Part shown: in pieces, positions 10,891 through 18,823 of the stretch
How the letters are laid out: the number at the start of each line of letters is the position of its first letter
Numbering within the stretch: position 1 is the stretch's first letter
Origin: Deltaproteobacteria bacterium
GTDB lineage: Bacteria; Myxococcota_A; UBA796; SXON01
Assembly: GCA_947490345.1 (NCBI GenBank)
Contig: CANLGL010000002.1
Location: 128,598-192,597 of the forward strand
Direction: 5' to 3'
DNA: 64,000 nt
Made by a program: the position numbers and the translations under genes
Notes under the pieces: model-generated
The model's database searches: none
Seen by the model: the letters and a program-made list of their open reading frames with translations, nothing else
What the model was told of the DNA's origin: nothing

Positions 10891-11688
10891 TCAGTTTTCC
10901 ACGGCCGCTGCCGCGAGGCGCCGCCAGCCGGATAGATCGATCTGCTCCGCGCGGGCACCAGGATCCACGTCCGCGGCGGTGCACCACGCAATGGCACGCT
11001 CCCGACCAACCTGATTGCCGAAGGCGTTGGTGAGAGTCTTGCGCCGCGCCGAGAAGCCAAGCCGGACGATGCGATCGAAGGCCTCGAGCGCCACCCCTCC
11101 GTAGTCGGGACTCGCGTGGGGCGAAAAACCTACCACCGCGCTGTGCACTTTGGGTGCCGGGTGGAAGGCCTCCGGGGGTAGCGTCAACAGCCGGTCGACG
11201 GCTGCACGCGCCTGGATCTGCACCGAAAGCGCCCCGTAGGTCCGGGAGCCGGAGTCGGCCTCGATGCGGTCCGCAACTTCACGTTGGAACATCAACGCCA
11301 TCGGTACCCGAAGCGTCAACAGCCGCATGCAGATTGGCGTTGCGACGTTGTAGGGGAGGTTCGCCACGACGCGGTCCACGGCAGGAAGGGGAACGTGGAG
11401 CGCGTCGCCTTCGATGAGCTGCACCGACGGCGCCACCTCGGGGAGCGCGGCAGCAAGGTCACGATCGAGCTCGATGGCCACCACCTGCGCGCCCGCGCGG
11501 GTCAGCGCCGCCGTGAGTACGCCGAGTCCGGGGCCGATCTCAAGGACACGGTCTCCTGGCCGAACGCCCGCGCGCGCGACGATTGCCTCTGCGAGTCCGT
11601 CGGCCACGAGGAAGTTCTGGCCAAACCGGCGGCGGGCGCGGCCCTCGAGCTCCCGGAGGCGCTGCGCCGGGTGAAGGGTGAAGCTCAC
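10891..11688 (-). CDS. rsmA: 16S rRNA (adenine1518-N6/adenine1519-N6)-dimethyltransferase RsmA (KsgA)
   Basis: Dimethylates two adjacent adenines in the 3' terminal hairpin of 16S rRNA using SAM. The 265-residue length fits the family. Visible motifs are the N-terminal RRRFGQNFL (about 20-27), the SAM motif LEIGPGLGVLT (49-59), acidic AIELD (71-75), and the catalytic NLPYN at 110-114; the C-terminal domain has FHPAPKVHSAVV and FSARRKTLTNAF. GTG 11688 overlaps the tsaD stop (GTGA). tsaD next to rsmA is a housekeeping pair. Confidence 0.96.
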   Translation of the reverse strand: MSFTLHPAQRLRELEGRARRRFGQNFLVADGLAEAIVARAGVRPGDRVLEIGPGLGVLTAALTRAGAQVVAIELDRDLAAALPEVAPSVQLIEGDALHVPLPAVDRVVANLPYNVATPICMRLLTLRVPMALMFQREVADRIEADSGSRTYGALSVQIQARAAVDRLLTLPPEAFHPAPKVHSAVVGFSPHASPDYGGVALEAFDRIVRLGFSARRKTLTNAFGNQVGRERAIAWCTAADVDPGARAEQIDLSGWRRLAAAAVEN

Positions 11689-12680
11689 GCGCTCACCTCC
11701 CACCGCGCGCGCGCGCTCGTGCCCAGAGGCGAGGCGACACGCCCCGCGGCCAGATGTAGGGCGGCCACGTTGGCGATCATCGCGGCATTGTCGGTGCAAC
11801 GGGCCTTCGGCGGCAGGAAGACGTGCAGCCCCGTGGCGACCATCGCGTCACGGATGTGACCGTTGGCTGCCGCGCCCCCGCCGAGCGCCACCCGGCGAAT
11901 GCCGGTGAGCGCCACGCCCTGAAGGACGCGATCGACCAGATAGCGGGCGACGGTATCTTGGAAGGACGCCGCCACGTCCTCGGTCCGGGAGTCGGGATGG
12001 CGCTCCAACCGCGTGCGGACCGCGGTCTTGAGCCCCGAGAAGCTCAGGTCCATGGGGCTGGCAGCGGGTCGCGGCATCGGGAAGTTGATGGCACGGGGAT
12101 TGCCGGTGCGTGCGGATTGCTCCACGCGGGGTCCGCCGGGGTAGCCGAGGCCGAGCATTCGGGCCACCTTGTCGAAGGCCTCGCCGACAGCGTCGTCAGT
12201 GGTCTCACAGAGCACACGGTAGTCGCCGACGCCGCGGGCCTCGTAGAGGGTGGTGTGACCTCCCGAGATGACCAGCGACAGAAAGGGGAAGGCGGGAGCC
12301 GGATCGTCGAGCAGGGCGCTGAGCAGGTGCCCTTCGAGGTGGTTCACCGCGACGAAGGGCACCCCCCACCCCAACGCCGCGGCCTTGGCGAAGGAGAGCC
12401 CGACCAAGACGGCACCGATGAGGCCAGGACCGGCCGTCGCGGCGACGGCGTCAGGGCGATCGATGCCCGCAGTCGCGAGCGCGGCGCGCGCGGTGGGCAC
12501 AACCTGTTCGATGTGGGCGCGGGAGGCGATCTCGGGCACCACGCCGCCGTAGCGGGCGTGCAGTGTCTGGGAGTGGATGACGTCCGCTAGCACGACGGCG
12601 CGGCCCTCGCCGGGGTGCTTGATGGAGACCACAGCGCACGCCGTCTCGTCGCAACTGGTTTCGATAGCCAGCACGTTCAT
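11685..12680 (-). CDS. tsaD: tRNA N6-adenosine threonylcarbamoyltransferase TsaD
   Basis: Catalytic subunit for t6A formation at position 37 of ANN-decoding tRNAs, working with TsaB and TsaE on threonylcarbamoyl-AMP. It starts MNVLAIETSCDETACAVV. The metal ligands are His114 and His118 in HLEGH, with SGGHTTLY and DLSFSGLKTAV further on. Near the C-terminus the usual CTDNGAMIA reads CTDNAAMIA, a conservative change. Length 331 is normal. ATG 12680 shares one base with the stop of the cytochrome gene before it. Confidence 0.97.
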   Translation of the reverse strand: MNVLAIETSCDETACAVVSIKHPGEGRAVVLADVIHSQTLHARYGGVVPEIASRAHIEQVVPTARAALATAGIDRPDAVAATAGPGLIGAVLVGLSFAKAAALGWGVPFVAVNHLEGHLLSALLDDPAPAFPFLSLVISGGHTTLYEARGVGDYRVLCETTDDAVGEAFDKVARMLGLGYPGGPRVEQSARTGNPRAINFPMPRPAASPMDLSFSGLKTAVRTRLERHPDSRTEDVAASFQDTVARYLVDRVLQGVALTGIRRVALGGGAAANGHIRDAMVATGLHVFLPPKARCTDNAAMIANVAALHLAAGRVASPLGTSARARWEVSA

Positions 12681-14197
12681 CAGTGTGCCACCTTCGGCCG
12701 GTAGGTGAGCTCGTCGAATCGCCCGCCGTCCTGTCGCGAGTCGTGGCATTGCACGCACTGGCTGGTGGGCGGCTCACGCACGAGGTGGGCGGTGGTCGGT
12801 GCGGCGATGTGTGCCTTGCCCGCGCCGTGACAGCTCTCGCAGCCGACGTTCTCCAGTCCATGGAGCTGGCGCGGGTCCGTCGGGCCGGTGCCGTCGAATG
12901 CGCCGGTGATGTGGCAGGAGTAGCAGTCCTGGTCGAATTGGCGGTCGTCGGCCACGATGGACGCGTAGGCGCGCGCATGGCTGGTGTGTGACCACTGCGC
13001 GGCTTGGGCAGCATGGCACGTCGTGCAAGCGGCCGAGCCGACCCAGGAGCCGATTCCCGCCGCGGCTCCAGCGGGGGTGGCCTCGGCCGGCGCGGACTGG
13101 GAGCCGGTGAGTGTCGCCTTGACCGCCGCCACCAGGGCAAAGGTGGGCGCGTGCTCGCCGACGTCGTCGCCCAGGCCACGCAGAGTGTTGTTCAGCACGT
13201 TGGTGGGCCCGGCGGTCGCGGTCGCGAGATCAAGTGCGGTCCGGGCGGTCGCCTGCTTCTTTGTCCAGAACTCCTCCTGGCGTGTCAGCCGGGAGAGCTC
13301 CCGGGCGTCGGTCGCCTTGGCCTTTCTGGTCGCCAGTTCGGTCAGGCGGGTGGTCGCGGTGTCGACATCGGTGGCGCGGGCGGCGGACGCACCGGCGTCC
13401 CGCCAAGCCCGGGCGCCGGGCGTCACCTCAACGGTGGCGACGCCGAGCAATTTGCCGCGGGCGCCTGAGCTGAGGACGAGCGCGCCCGTCGCCAGCGCTT
13501 CCGGGGTGGAAAGCGTCTCGGTGGAATCAGCGCGAAGAAAGAAGTCGACGCCTGGCGCGCGCACGGCGATGTCCGATTCGGCGGTGCGGCCTAGGTCGGC
13601 GAGCACGATGACCACGGTGTCACTCACCGGGATGCCCTCAAGTGCCTGGCCCGCATCCATGACGGAGCAGCCGGGGAGCTTGAGCTCGGGGTGGGCGATG
13701 CCGTACACCTCCACTCGCGCGCCCGCCTTGTCGAAGCTCCGTACGGCGGGCCACGGGAGGGGTGTGGAGCAGGTCACGTTGCTCAGAACGTAGGGCAGCT
13801 CCCAGGCGGTCGCGACCTCCGCGACGAAGGGCAGCCCGAAGGCGAAGTCGCCACGCGCGGGCAGCATCGCGTCAATTCCGCCAAGGTGGGTGGCCTCAGC
13901 GATGAGCCGTGCCTTGGCCTCGCGCTCGGCGCGCTCCCCGCTGGGCAGGACGGCGGAGCGACGAAACAGATTGCCCGCGTCGACGACGAGCAGGTCGCCG
14001 CCCCGCGCCAGCGTGCTCAGAACCGAGTTTCTCCGGGACAGACCGCCCTGGGGATGTCGTGGTCACCCACAAGGTTCGATTTCGCCATCCACCGCCCCTT
14101 GGTAGGCGAGGGTGAATGCGAGCGACGTTGACGGCGTCGCGGCCGGCTGCGTGTCGGTGCCGCAGCCCAAGAGCGCGACCAGGCCGAGGGGGATCAC
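12680..14197 (-). CDS. Tetrahaem cytochrome lipoprotein with 5'-nucleotidase-like domain; predicted selenoprotein (Sec at codon 45, TGA)
   Basis: Reading from GTG 14197, which overlaps the upstream stop by 4 bases (GTGA), gives a lipoprotein signal with LLGC (C12), then GAVDGEIEPCG, an in-frame TGA (14065-14063), and PRHPQGGLSRRNSVL continuing for 460 open codons. From memory, the family has EPCGC followed by x-GGxxRR, so TGA replaces a cysteine. The middle (about 75-310) resembles a UshA-type metallophosphatase fold with degenerate metal motifs (LLVVDAGNLF, ARGDFAFGLP). The C-terminus has four CxxCH haem sites: 391-395, 425-429, 453-457 and 481-485. A SECIS-like hairpin follows the TGA. Redox or electron transfer at the cell envelope is likely. 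Alternatives: a point nonsense mutation (TGC to TGA), or translation from ATG 13867, which would lose the lipidation signal. The selenium machinery is not in this window. Confidence 0.8.
14033..14065 (-). promoter_or_regulatory. Predicted bacterial SECIS element after UGA codon 45
   Basis: In the RNA, UGA is at 14065-14063. GGG (+15 to +17) pairs with CCC (+26 to +28), extended by C13-G29 and C12-G30 around a bulged A14, and probably capped by C18-G24. The apical loop is GGUCU at +19 to +23 (14044-14040). As I recall the E. coli fdhF element, its GGUCU loop lies at the same distance (18 bases) from UGA. Folding was done by eye, not by software. Confidence 0.65.
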
Positions 14198-15735
14198 TTC
14201 TTCCCCTCGCTCTTTCGTTTCAGAATGCGCTCCTGGCGCTCCGTTTCCCGGACTCGGCGCTCCTCGGCGGCGATGCGTTCTTTCCGCTCTTCTTCGGCCG
14301 CCTCGCCCCGGGCGTGACGACCATGCTCCCGGTGGAGGTCCTTCAGGACGTCGACCAATCCGTCATCGACGATGTAGATCTCTGGGAACGCGGCGTTGCG
14401 GGCGTAGAGCCGGCTGCGCTCGTGACCCTCCTGGTCGGTGGTGGGACTGGCGGCCTTGCCGAGGAGGACCGTCGAGGTGCGTCCAGTGTCATCGACCATG
14501 TCCACGCGGGCGATCGGCTTGTCGAAGCCGTACGAGGCGTCGGTGCCGGTGACGCCCACGAACTCGTCGCTCTCGATGTCGGCCGCCCGACCCGCGACCC
14601 GCCGCGGCGTGCTACCGGGAACCAGGACGCCGTCCTCCCACTGCCACTCCGACGCGGCCTGGCGCACGACCACGGTCCCCGCGAGGTCCTGGTCGTCGGA
14701 GTCTGCCGGCGCGAAGGTGCTGGTAAGCGATACGATCTTGTTCTGGTCCATGCGCCCGAACTGCTTGAGGCGCAGCTCTTCGGGGTCCCGAAGGTAGTCG
14801 TCCAAGAAGACGTCGCGCACCTGGTAGACGAAGGGCTCTCCCTCCAGCATGGCGTATGCGAGGGGGTATTCACCATCGACTTCCCCCGAGGGGTTGCCGA
14901 GCACCAGGGTGAGTGGGGCCTTCCCGCCGGCGAACTGGATGCTGATGCGCGCGCGGGGCTCCGCGAGCCCGTACTCCCCGAGTGCGGCGGCGGACTCGAC
15001 GAAGCGAATCGCCTTCATCGCACTGATCCGGCCGAGGAGGCCGCGAACTTCCATGTCTGCAGCGGCGATCTGGATAGGTTCGACCAGGTCCCAAGCCCGA
15101 TCCCCCTCGGCGGAACGCTGTACCCGCAGGCGCTTCCCCTCCGGGAGCGTCGCGTCGATACCGTCGACATCCTTGGAGTCGAATGAGGCAAAACGCCGTT
15201 CGCGGAACTCGTTGAGTTCCAGCGAGTAGTAGTCGACCGCCGACTTCTTCACGGTGTAGACGACATCGTCTCCGGTGCGGCGAAGGTAGAAGCTGACGCC
15301 GGATGGGTTGGGATCGCCAGCGTCGAACTCCTGGGTCGAGCCGTCCCGCATCGTGAGCTTGATGTGGATTGCGCTGGGACCGAGTCCGTAAAGCGCGCCC
15401 TCCTCGCTTTCTCCCGCGACCGTTGCCCGGGAGACCAGATCGTGGAGCTGATGCTTCACCCGGTTGACCATCTGCCGGCTGGCACGCATCTCGGTGCCTT
15501 CAATCCACCACGACCCGTCCGCATGCTCGGTGAGCGTGATGGGACCGTCGCTGCGGGTGACCTCGACCGCCACGAGATCGGCCTTCTCGAAGACGAAGAG
15601 GGGCACGCCCTCAACCTTGGCCATCGCGGCCTTGCGCTCCTTGGGCGTGAGCTCTGTCGGGCGGGCGAGGGTGTAGCCGCCGATCAGGGCAAGCAGAACT
15701 GCCAGCGCCAGGATCGTGCCTTTGAACTGCTTCAT
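14194..15735 (-). CDS. DUF4340 domain protein associated with Gld-type ABC system
   Basis: A 513-residue envelope protein with one N-terminal hydrophobic segment (GTILALAVLLALIGGYTLA) and a large extracytoplasmic region, ending in a charged tail (ERRVRETERQERILKRKSEG). Repeated beta-rich segments such as VPLFVFEKADLVAVEVTRSD and SWWIEGTEMRASRQMV are typical of DUF4340. The family habitually follows GldG-like proteins, as here: three bases separate it from that gene. It probably forms a periplasmic part of the ABC complex. The biochemical role is unknown. Confidence 0.85.
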   Translation of the reverse strand: MKQFKGTILALAVLLALIGGYTLARPTELTPKERKAAMAKVEGVPLFVFEKADLVAVEVTRSDGPITLTEHADGSWWIEGTEMRASRQMVNRVKHQLHDLVSRATVAGESEEGALYGLGPSAIHIKLTMRDGSTQEFDAGDPNPSGVSFYLRRTGDDVVYTVKKSAVDYYSLELNEFRERRFASFDSKDVDGIDATLPEGKRLRVQRSAEGDRAWDLVEPIQIAAADMEVRGLLGRISAMKAIRFVESAAALGEYGLAEPRARISIQFAGGKAPLTLVLGNPSGEVDGEYPLAYAMLEGEPFVYQVRDVFLDDYLRDPEELRLKQFGRMDQNKIVSLTSTFAPADSDDQDLAGTVVVRQAASEWQWEDGVLVPGSTPRRVAGRAADIESDEFVGVTGTDASYGFDKPIARVDMVDDTGRTSTVLLGKAASPTTDQEGHERSRLYARNAAFPEIYIVDDGLVDVLKDLHREHGRHARGEAAEEERKERIAAEERRVRETERQERILKRKSEGKK

Positions 15736-15738
15736 TAC

Positions 15739-17196
15739 CTACCTCCCCCGCCGCGACGCCCAGACGCTCACGCCGAGTAGCAGCACCAGCAGGGGGCCGA
15801 GTCCGATCGCCAGCCAGCGAATCTGGTCGCCGTCCTCGGCAGTCAGCGCCAACCGACGGGCCTTTTTTGCACCACCGATCACTGAGATCCGTGCTTCGTC
15901 CCCGATGAGCCAGCGGAAACTATTTAGTACAAAGCTGGCGTTTCCCGGGCCCTCAGACAAGAGCCCGTTGGTGAACACATCGCTATCGCCGACAACGAGC
16001 ACCCGGCCGATTCCCTTCCGAACCAGCCCGCTGTCGCGACTGACCTCGAGGGCAACCGCCATCGTTGCCGGACCCTGCCCGTCGATCTCGGGCTCGTAGA
16101 GTCCCTGGCCGTTCTTGAGCGCCCCGCCCCGGTCAATCCAGCCATCGCGACTGGTCTCGAGCACGATGGTGCTGCGAATTCCCTCGAGTGGCGGCACCGC
16201 AGCCTGTACGGGCGCTACGCCGCTGACCACCGTCACCAAGCTATCGTCGGACAGATCACGGGTGATCGGGTGCGATTTGTAGCGGGGCACAGGGCGATCG
16301 GGGTACGGGAAAACCAAGATTTTGTCCAGCACCCTGCCCGACGGAATCACCACGCCGAGCCGGCCGAGGATCGAGGGGACGGGCGACTCCGGATCCACCG
16401 CGATCACCAACGCACCGCCGCCGGAGAGGTACGCGAGGATCAGGTCCTCCTCCAGCGATGGGATGGGCACCTTCGGGCGAAGGATCGCGAGCGCCGCGGC
16501 ATCATCTGGAACGCGGGGCACGGGCATGTCCCGCTGCCGAACGAAATCGAGCCGCTCGAGCTTGTAGTCATCCTGCTGCAGAACGGCGGCCGCTTCTGAA
16601 AGGCCGCCCAGGTCGTGGTTCTCGGGGTCGAGCTCGCCGTGGCCCACGAGCGTGTAGACGACCCGGTGATTGTCGGCGGTGAGCTGTGCGAACGCCCGAT
16701 CAAGCGCCTTTTCACCGAGGAATTCGAGGTGGCGCTCCTCCCCTTTGCCGACACGCTTGAAGAGCTCCCTGTCCTTGATGTCGACGCGGGCCGCTCCGCG
16801 TTGCACGACCACGGTGCTGTAGTCGGTGACGCCCAGTTTTTCGGCAGTCAACCGCTCTTTATCGAAGTCTACGAACGCAACGGTGACCACCTGGGAAGCG
16901 AAATCGACCTCGTCCAGCAGGTCCCGAAGCGCGCGGTCTTTGTAGTAGGACTCCTGCTTGCCCCGCTGCCCAGAGAAGGCGGTGACCGTGACCGGTGTTG
17001 CGTCGCGATCGAGCAGAGCCAGCTTGGTGAGGGTATCGGGCAACAACGCCGCGCCCTGGTCGGCACTGAGGTCGATCCGAACACGGTGCAGGTCGACGAG
17101 CAGGTACCCAACGCAAGCCACGGCGACCACGATGACGCTGACGAAGAGCGAGTTGCTCCCGGCGGCGAAGCGTCGGCGGGCCTGGTTCATCGCCAT
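15739..17196 (-). CDS. GldG-like ABC transporter auxiliary protein
   Basis: Membrane protein of 485 residues with a helix at each end (N-terminal SLFVSVIVVAVACVGYLLV, C-terminal IGLGPLLVLLLGVSVWA) around a large periplasmic ABC_transp_aux domain. Motifs include YSTVVVQRGAARVDI, VYTLVGHGELD and LVIAVDPESP. In Bacteroidota GldG serves gliding motility with GldA and GldF; in Myxococcota the same trio is widespread and its substrate is uncertain. Start is ATG 17196 or 17190, both overlapping the permease gene end. Confidence 0.88.
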   Translation of the reverse strand: MAMNQARRRFAAGSNSLFVSVIVVAVACVGYLLVDLHRVRIDLSADQGAALLPDTLTKLALLDRDATPVTVTAFSGQRGKQESYYKDRALRDLLDEVDFASQVVTVAFVDFDKERLTAEKLGVTDYSTVVVQRGAARVDIKDRELFKRVGKGEERHLEFLGEKALDRAFAQLTADNHRVVYTLVGHGELDPENHDLGGLSEAAAVLQQDDYKLERLDFVRQRDMPVPRVPDDAAALAILRPKVPIPSLEEDLILAYLSGGGALVIAVDPESPVPSILGRLGVVIPSGRVLDKILVFPYPDRPVPRYKSHPITRDLSDDSLVTVVSGVAPVQAAVPPLEGIRSTIVLETSRDGWIDRGGALKNGQGLYEPEIDGQGPATMAVALEVSRDSGLVRKGIGRVLVVGDSDVFTNGLLSEGPGNASFVLNSFRWLIGDEARISVIGGAKKARRLALTAEDGDQIRWLAIGLGPLLVLLLGVSVWASRRGR

Positions 17197-17897
17197 CGGC
17201 GGGACTCAAGCGAGCGGTAGGTCAGGAACAGGAAGGTGAAGGTCATCGCCGTGAAGTAGTAGACATCGGCGCTGTCGATGATCCCGCGCCCGAAGGCTTC
17301 CAGGTGGTTGAGCACACCGAAGGGCTGGAGCTTCAGGGCCAGATCGTCGCCGACGAGCGCCTCGGCCCGGCTGATCAACCAAAAGGGCAAAAGCACGAGA
17401 ATACCGAGGAGGCCGGCGGCGAGTTGGTCATCCAACAGCGTGCTCGTGAAGAGGCCGGCGGCGCAGAACGCGCCGGCGACGAGGAGCAACCCGACGTAGG
17501 TGGAGAACACCACGCCCCAGTCGGGGTCACCGTAATAGGCCAGGATGATCGGTAGCACACCGGTGCCCACGAACATGAGGCCGCACAGCGTCACCGACGC
17601 GAGCCACTTCCCGATGACAAGGGAGAATGGCGAAATGGGCGCGGTGAGCAGCATTTCCAGGGTTCCTTGCCGGCGTTCCTCAGCGAAGTGGCGCATCGTG
17701 AGCATCGGCAGGATGAACAACTCGGCGATTGCCAGGTTGCTGGACAGGACGCGGAGGCTCGCTTCCCCGGTCAGGGTGACGCCGAGGTAGAAGAAGAGCC
17801 CGGCGAGGAACAGGAAAACAGCCAGAAAGGCGTACGCCGTTGGGTTGACCGCGTAGATCCGGAGCTCCTTCTTCCAGATGGTCGTGACCGAATTCAT
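17187..17897 (-). CDS. ABC transporter permease, GldF-like
   Basis: A 236-residue integral membrane protein with about six helices, beginning MNSVTTIWKKELRIYAVNPTAYA cut as MNSVTTIWKKELRIY / AVNPTAYAFLAVFLF, a usual ABC2 membrane start with a cytoplasmic helix. The family pattern MRHFAEERRQGTLEMLLTAP lies between helices 2 and 3. The ATG overlaps the ATPase stop (ATGA), so ATPase and permease are translated together. Substrate unknown; a role in envelope or motility export is inferred from the GldA/F/G arrangement. Confidence 0.9.
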   Translation of the reverse strand: MNSVTTIWKKELRIYAVNPTAYAFLAVFLFLAGLFFYLGVTLTGEASLRVLSSNLAIAELFILPMLTMRHFAEERRQGTLEMLLTAPISPFSLVIGKWLASVTLCGLMFVGTGVLPIILAYYGDPDWGVVFSTYVGLLLVAGAFCAAGLFTSTLLDDQLAAGLLGILVLLPFWLISRAEALVGDDLALKLQPFGVLNHLEAFGRGIIDSADVYYFTAMTFTFLFLTYRSLESRRWR

Positions 17898-18823
17898 GCT
17901 TGGCCGCCCTCGCGACCGACGATATGGATGAAGGCGTCTTCCAGGGTCGGTGCGCGACGTTCCAGGGCTCGAAGCTGAAACTCGCCCGCTGCAGCCCGGG
18001 TGGCCAGAAGCTCCCTCGGGTCTGTGGTTGCCCGCACGCACCACGCGTCCCAGCCATCGACGGCCGGCAGGGGCTCTACCTGGGCGATTCCCGGCAGGCT
18101 ACCGAGCCGGGGACCGTCAATCCCACGTACTTCCACGTAGGTCCACGCTCCGCCCGGAGCTTGCTCGCGAAGCTCGGCCAACGTGCCCTGCGCGACAACC
18201 CGGCCTCGGTCGATGATGATCGCTCGCGGGCACAGCGCATCCACTTCCGAGAGGATGTGCGTGCTCAGAATCACCGTGTGGGAGCCCGCGAGCGAAAGGA
18301 TCAGCTCCCTGATTCCGGCCAACTGGGCGGGATCGAGGCCAGAGGTTGGCTCATCCAAGATCAGCACGCTCGGGTCATGCAAGAGCGCCTGAGCAAGCCC
18401 GACCCGCTGTCGGTACCCCTTCGACAACGAGCCGAGCAGCCGGCTTTCCCAGCCACGAAGGCCCACGCGCTCCATGGTGTCGCCGATGACGGTGGCGCGC
18501 TTGGCCTTGGGGACTCGCCTGAGCTCGGCGCAAAACTGCAAGTAGGCCCCGACGCTGAGCTCCGGGTAGAGCGGCGGAGTTTCCGGCAGGTAGCCCACAC
18601 GCTCGCGCACCTCGTACGGCTCGTCAAAAACGTCGTAGCCCGCCACCCGTACGACCCCGGCCGTCGCGGGTATGTAGCCCGTGAGGATCCGCATGGTCGT
18701 GGTCTTGCCCGCACCATTTGGGCCCAGGAAGCCCACGATCTCGCCCTTTTGAATCGTGAAGCTCACATCGTCGAGGGCGAGGCGCGGCCCAAACGTCTTG
18801 GTGAGCCTTGAGACTTCAATCAT
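17894..18823 (-). CDS. ABC transporter ATP-binding protein, GldA-like
   Basis: Nucleotide-binding subunit (309 residues) for the permease downstream. It shows Walker A GPNGAGKTT, Q-loop region YLPETPPLYPELSV, signature LSKGYRQRVGLAQALLHDP, Walker B VLILDEPTSGLDP and the H-loop STHILSEVD. LSKGY in place of LSGGQ is common in the GldA/drug-export group. The extra C-terminal region after 220 is also usual for that group. ATG 18823 lies 25 bases from the divergent SurA-like gene start. It is the first gene of the nine-gene minus-strand run. Confidence 0.95.
   Translation of the reverse strand: MIEVSRLTKTFGPRLALDDVSFTIQKGEIVGFLGPNGAGKTTTMRILTGYIPATAGVVRVAGYDVFDEPYEVRERVGYLPETPPLYPELSVGAYLQFCAELRRVPKAKRATVIGDTMERVGLRGWESRLLGSLSKGYRQRVGLAQALLHDPSVLILDEPTSGLDPAQLAGIRELILSLAGSHTVILSTHILSEVDALCPRAIIIDRGRVVAQGTLAELREQAPGGAWTYVEVRGIDGPRLGSLPGIAQVEPLPAVDGWDAWCVRATTDPRELLATRAAAGEFQLRALERRAPTLEDAFIHIVGREGGQA

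Follow-up and report, generated by a model that had tools for sequence, protein, structure and literature searches.

The gene at positions 12680-14197 (minus strand) of the window, the whole stretch of 64,000 nucleotides analysed here, is almost certainly, as judged by sequence comparison, a real selenoprotein gene: that of a UshA-like tetrahaem selenolipoprotein of 505 residues with a GTG start and one in-frame TGA read as selenocysteine (Sec). The protein is a divergent and easily missed member of the known UshA-like PCGU selenoprotein family and not a new family. The overall explanation, a UshA-like PCGU selenoprotein with hairpin-aided Sec insertion that works as a lipid-anchored redox protein with a haem relay, is held to be very probable. 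It is built on the reading frame, the conservation of the TGA, the Sec/Cys pairing, the hairpin, the sel genes and the domain make-up, from which we infer that the product is exported, that its phosphatase activity is lost, and what its redox chemistry and the direction of its electrons would be.

The frame runs on the minus strand from GTG 14197 to the stop at 12682-12680. Its sole internal TGA lies at 14065-14063 (codon 45) in the context EPCG-UGA-PRHPQGGLSRR, giving the motif E-P-C43-G-U45, and is followed by 460 open codons. The GTG is preceded by the purine-rich GAGGGGAAGAA and overlaps by 4 bases the stop of the DUF4340 gene (TGA 14196-14194). The protein comprises three parts, all encoded on the minus strand: a lipobox, LLGC, at residues 9-12 (14162-14173), which predicts lipid-anchored export and has a lipobox-like counterpart in most orthologues; a UshA/5'-nucleotidase-fold domain of about residues 23-340 (13180-14131); and a cytochrome c554-like tetrahaem domain (12740-13030), with CxxCH motifs beginning at residues 391, 425, 453 and 481 (13027-13013, 12925-12911, 12841-12827 and 12757-12743). 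A plain table-11 gene caller without recoding reports only 12680-13867, the first start after the TGA being ATG 13867. A preliminary description of this DNA had given the frame with its single TGA and 4-base overlap, the lipoprotein signal, the four CxxCH motifs and the truncated call that loses the signal, and all of these were found again.

The UshA-like CxU selenoprotein (COG0737) was tabulated in 2008 in the Global Ocean Sampling marine survey (PMC2398784) and was included again in reviews of 2022 and 2026 (PMC9312934, PMC13188914). The window protein shares the domain family and the CxU motif with the COG0737 selenoproteins of the survey, whose tabulated entry gives domain and motif without haem domain, operon or function. 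The closest named family is NCBIfam NF041198 (UshA_like_PCGU, 'UshA-like (seleno)protein'), which has the same PCGU motif and two-domain layout and matches nearly the whole protein (residues 15-490, profile 11-513 of 519, E 1e-73). The score of 248.4 bits is under the curated cut-off of 275; as orthologues from the order do exceed that cut-off, it is read as divergence within the family. The cut-off is exceeded in 22 of the 379 genomes of the phylum sample and only a minority of the members of the order pass, so that it excludes most Sec orthologues of the order and annotation built on it probably truncates them. NF049981 (UshA_like_Sel_2) is a related family with a weak match to the window protein (21.7 bits, cut-off 140), from which it differs in its CxxU motif (PMC13188914) and in a 262-position model without the haem part. 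Sec and the tetrahaem lipoprotein anatomy stand as proposed in the preliminary description, but the novelty of Sec in this family does not, since NF041198 names the PCGU form and the CxU form is in the 2008 table (PMC2398784). The new detail consists of an unconserved metal site set against near-invariant PCGU and haem motifs, a conserved operon and three genomes with haem-less Sec forms.

The N-terminal domain is confident in the AlphaFold (AF2) model, with blocks mostly at 80-97 pLDDT, and the PCGU loop and the C-terminal haem domain have low confidence. Its Foldseek neighbours are UshA-type 5'-nucleotidases, YunD, CD73 and SoxB, and a profile built from 18 orthologues gave sequence matches to 5'-nucleotidases and SoxB as well. 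The metallophosphatase-like domain proposed earlier is thus supported by fold; Pfam identified only the haem domain (PF13435), found together with the four CxxCH motifs. Although the fold is common to UshA and other 5'-nucleotidases, YunD and SoxB, their metal-ligand columns are not conserved in the Sec family: the columns of the UshA-type metal and catalytic residues (D-x-H, D, N-H, H, H) are variable, and the window protein, aligned to 2z1a, has A35/D37, N76, R115/G116, D201 and D224 there. Conservation of at least 95% in the Sec family is seen for PCGU, for the stretch GGL.R, for all four CxxCH motifs and for several His residues. The UshA-fold domain is probably no longer a phosphatase on the evidence of these columns, and the conserved PCGU loop is read here as its putative working site, with phosphoesterase activity lost. 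In the C-terminal domain the first three haem motifs align with cytochrome c554 of Nitrosomonas (1bvb; PF13435), with the difference that the haem domain of the window protein is fused behind a Sec-bearing domain. The haem part is also, but only weakly, similar to PDB 9wt8/9wt9, solved structures of a 'multiheme cytochrome c selenoprotein' (MccSep, with a U325A mutant); the literature library searched contained no useful paper on MccSep or on selenocysteine in Myxococcota.

Three Sec UshA-like proteins without the tetrahaem domain were identified in genomes G026, G027 and G050: L055 (1664-2860), L056 (1663-2778) and L057 (1620-2639, reverse strand). All three keep the TGA and the hairpin, and no CxxCH was found in the genes nor in any frame of the downstream sequence examined. 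L056 has EPTGU in place of EPCGU (Cys43 replaced by Thr), with tsaD directly after the gene. Since these forms keep Sec, the haems are not required for its retention; together with the Thr of L056 they indicate that a chain of Cys43, Sec45 and haem is not obligatory. The essential part in this clade may be the Sec loop, and neither the phosphoesterase site nor the haems, the protein having become a Sec redox protein on a phosphoesterase fold that is dead as an enzyme, a proposal to which we give an even chance.

The UshA fold, the presence of SoxB among the matches, the lack of Cys43 in L056 and the retention of Sec and hairpin in L055-L057 without haems would also suit a Sec that is not a dithiol-type redox centre, being instead a metal or haem-iron ligand, or a covalent carrier or nucleophile of the SoxB/SoxYZ kind. 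Of the 56 Sec proteins aligned, however, 55 keep Cys43, CxU is a classic thiol/selenol spacing and the relatives have CxC, and a role of this kind is considered rather unlikely. The Cys43-Gly-Sec45 loop is most likely a fast thiol/selenol redox centre, which would pass electrons to or take them from a substrate or partner that binds to the UshA domain; the c554-like haems would carry electrons to or from this centre, in a product predicted to be lipid-anchored outside the inner membrane.

The protein search covered 63 genomes of the order and gave matches in 60. In about 50 of the order genomes the best match is full-length and interrupted by a single in-frame stop, which is in every case TGA and in every case at the column of codon 45 (14063-14065, minus strand), and 8 further genomes of the class, outside the order, have TGA at this column too; it is occupied by TGA in 59 distinct sequences. 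Among the matches listed for the phylum's other classes none has an in-frame stop, and 8 of 8 inspected have TGC or TGT. A paralogue clade across the order, in the same genomes, presents EVCGC or EPCGC at the Sec column. The genome of the window (G000) contains a Cys paralogue, L077 on contig C24, with VEVCGC and four CxxCH. Paralogues and members of other classes supply 26 sequences with Cys at the codon-45 column, as anticipated by the earlier claim that relatives have EPCGC there. This pattern is, at the level of aligned columns, that of a classic Sec/Cys pair. All Sec rows group on one side of a quick tree, with weak support (30). Several MAG contigs titled 'Klebsiella pneumoniae' (L121, L122, L133) encode close orthologues and the operon, and their species label looks wrong.

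The call from 12680 to 13867 would agree with a TGA that is a real stop, leaving either a pseudogene or a downstream protein made from ATG 13867 only. Against it speaks the retention of this TGA, between conserved flanks, in about 50 independent genomes; a start at 13867 would lose the signal together with most of the domain's first strand-loop, and the upstream part with EPCG is present in all full-length orthologues. This reading is rejected on conservation across genomes, and its chance is very small.

The SECIS-type hairpin lies at 14033-14051 (minus strand), and its apical loop GGUCU (14044-14040) follows the UGA at a distance of 18 nt. Published limits for bacterial SECIS elements are a loop 16-37 nt from the UGA and a G within the first two bases of the loop (PMC13188914), and the window hairpin agrees with both. 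The Gly codon in the loop, the seventh after the UGA, is GGT in 58 of 59 distinct Sec loci and in 3 of 26 Cys forms, GGT being 11.5% of Gly codons elsewhere in the genes of the Sec loci. At position 10, the Arg codon follows its partner base: where this is T, all 32 of 32 sequences have AGR (or Lys AAG), and where it is not, 22 of 27 have CGN, with AGR at about 5% of Arg codons in the Sec-locus genes; these codon tests are uncorrected for relatedness among the sequences. Stem cells are paired in 79.8% against 26-56% for slid versions. Folding energy alone was no better than in shuffles, double-sided changes among the stem pair types showed no excess over shuffles, and an Rfam scan for SECIS gave no match. 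As neither folding energy nor double changes exceed the shuffles, the argument for the RNA element is drawn from its conservation, its register and the choice of codons, and the covariation evidence is limited to the specific T-A / G-C coupling at the Arg codon. The window hairpin shares with the fdhF SECIS of E. coli, whose segment was confirmed, the codons GGU CUG as the seventh and eighth after the UGA, but differs in its stem sequence, which has an A-C mismatch. The remaining alternative, a sequencing or assembly error for TGC/TGT, which are one base away from TGA and encode the Cys of the relatives, is refuted by cross-genome comparison and has a negligible probability, the same TGA being present in dozens of separately assembled MAGs and the hairpin-specific synonymous constraint only in TGA copies.

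The genome of the window also contains the machinery to decode Sec. The tRNA-Sec gene (selC) was identified by Rfam (65 bits, cut-off 47) and by ARAGORN, as tRNA-SeC(tca); selA and selD scored 390 and 387 bits. SelD (L082:1487 onward, contig C42) has a TGA of its own within the frame, at the place where Sec usually lies (HGGG-TGA-GCKLG), so that genes of selenoprotein type with a TGA number at least two in this genome. For selB, the C-terminal wing domain lies at one contig end and a 25-residue match to the SelB N-terminus at another (L010 and L145, contigs C37 and C4), the middle being absent from the assembly. The gene was probably cut by the assembly, because the nearest relative, G047, has a SelB frame of 605 residues. 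The check for selA, selB, selC and selD suggested earlier thus recovered all four, selB as two contig-end fragments. Within the order, SelB and the selenoprotein are weakly associated (46 of 52 vs 6 of 11, Fisher p 0.017), as nearly all genomes of the order have SelB and the assemblies are incomplete. In the proposed mechanism SelB would bring Sec-tRNA to the UGA at 14065-14063, aided by the hairpin (loop GGUCU) directly downstream. The sel genes, the Sec/Cys pairing, the conserved SECIS-type hairpin and the order-wide TGA all agree with the first proposal that the UGA is read as Sec.

The gene forms part of a conserved operon on the minus strand. Upstream are the ABC-2 permease (17187-17900, PF12698/PF12679), a GldG-like ABC transport auxiliary protein (15739-17196, PF09822) and the DUF4340 protein (14194-15735, PF14238), and downstream is tsaD (11685-12680, PF00814), whose ATG overlaps the selenoprotein stop (TGATG); these assignments are backed by synteny. 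The order of ABC-2 permease, GldG-like protein, DUF4340, selenoprotein, tsaD, rsmA and PP2C phosphatase is conserved in the order, that is, in most of its genomes with enough flanking sequence, and elsewhere in the class the gene remains adjacent to tsaD. The coupling to DUF4340 may point to a process of the cell envelope.

The reading of the window gene corrects a gene truncated by standard callers across a whole order of uncultured bacteria. The haem-less Sec forms, together with the unconserved phosphoesterase site, provide a lead on the function of a selenoprotein family that has been listed since 2008.
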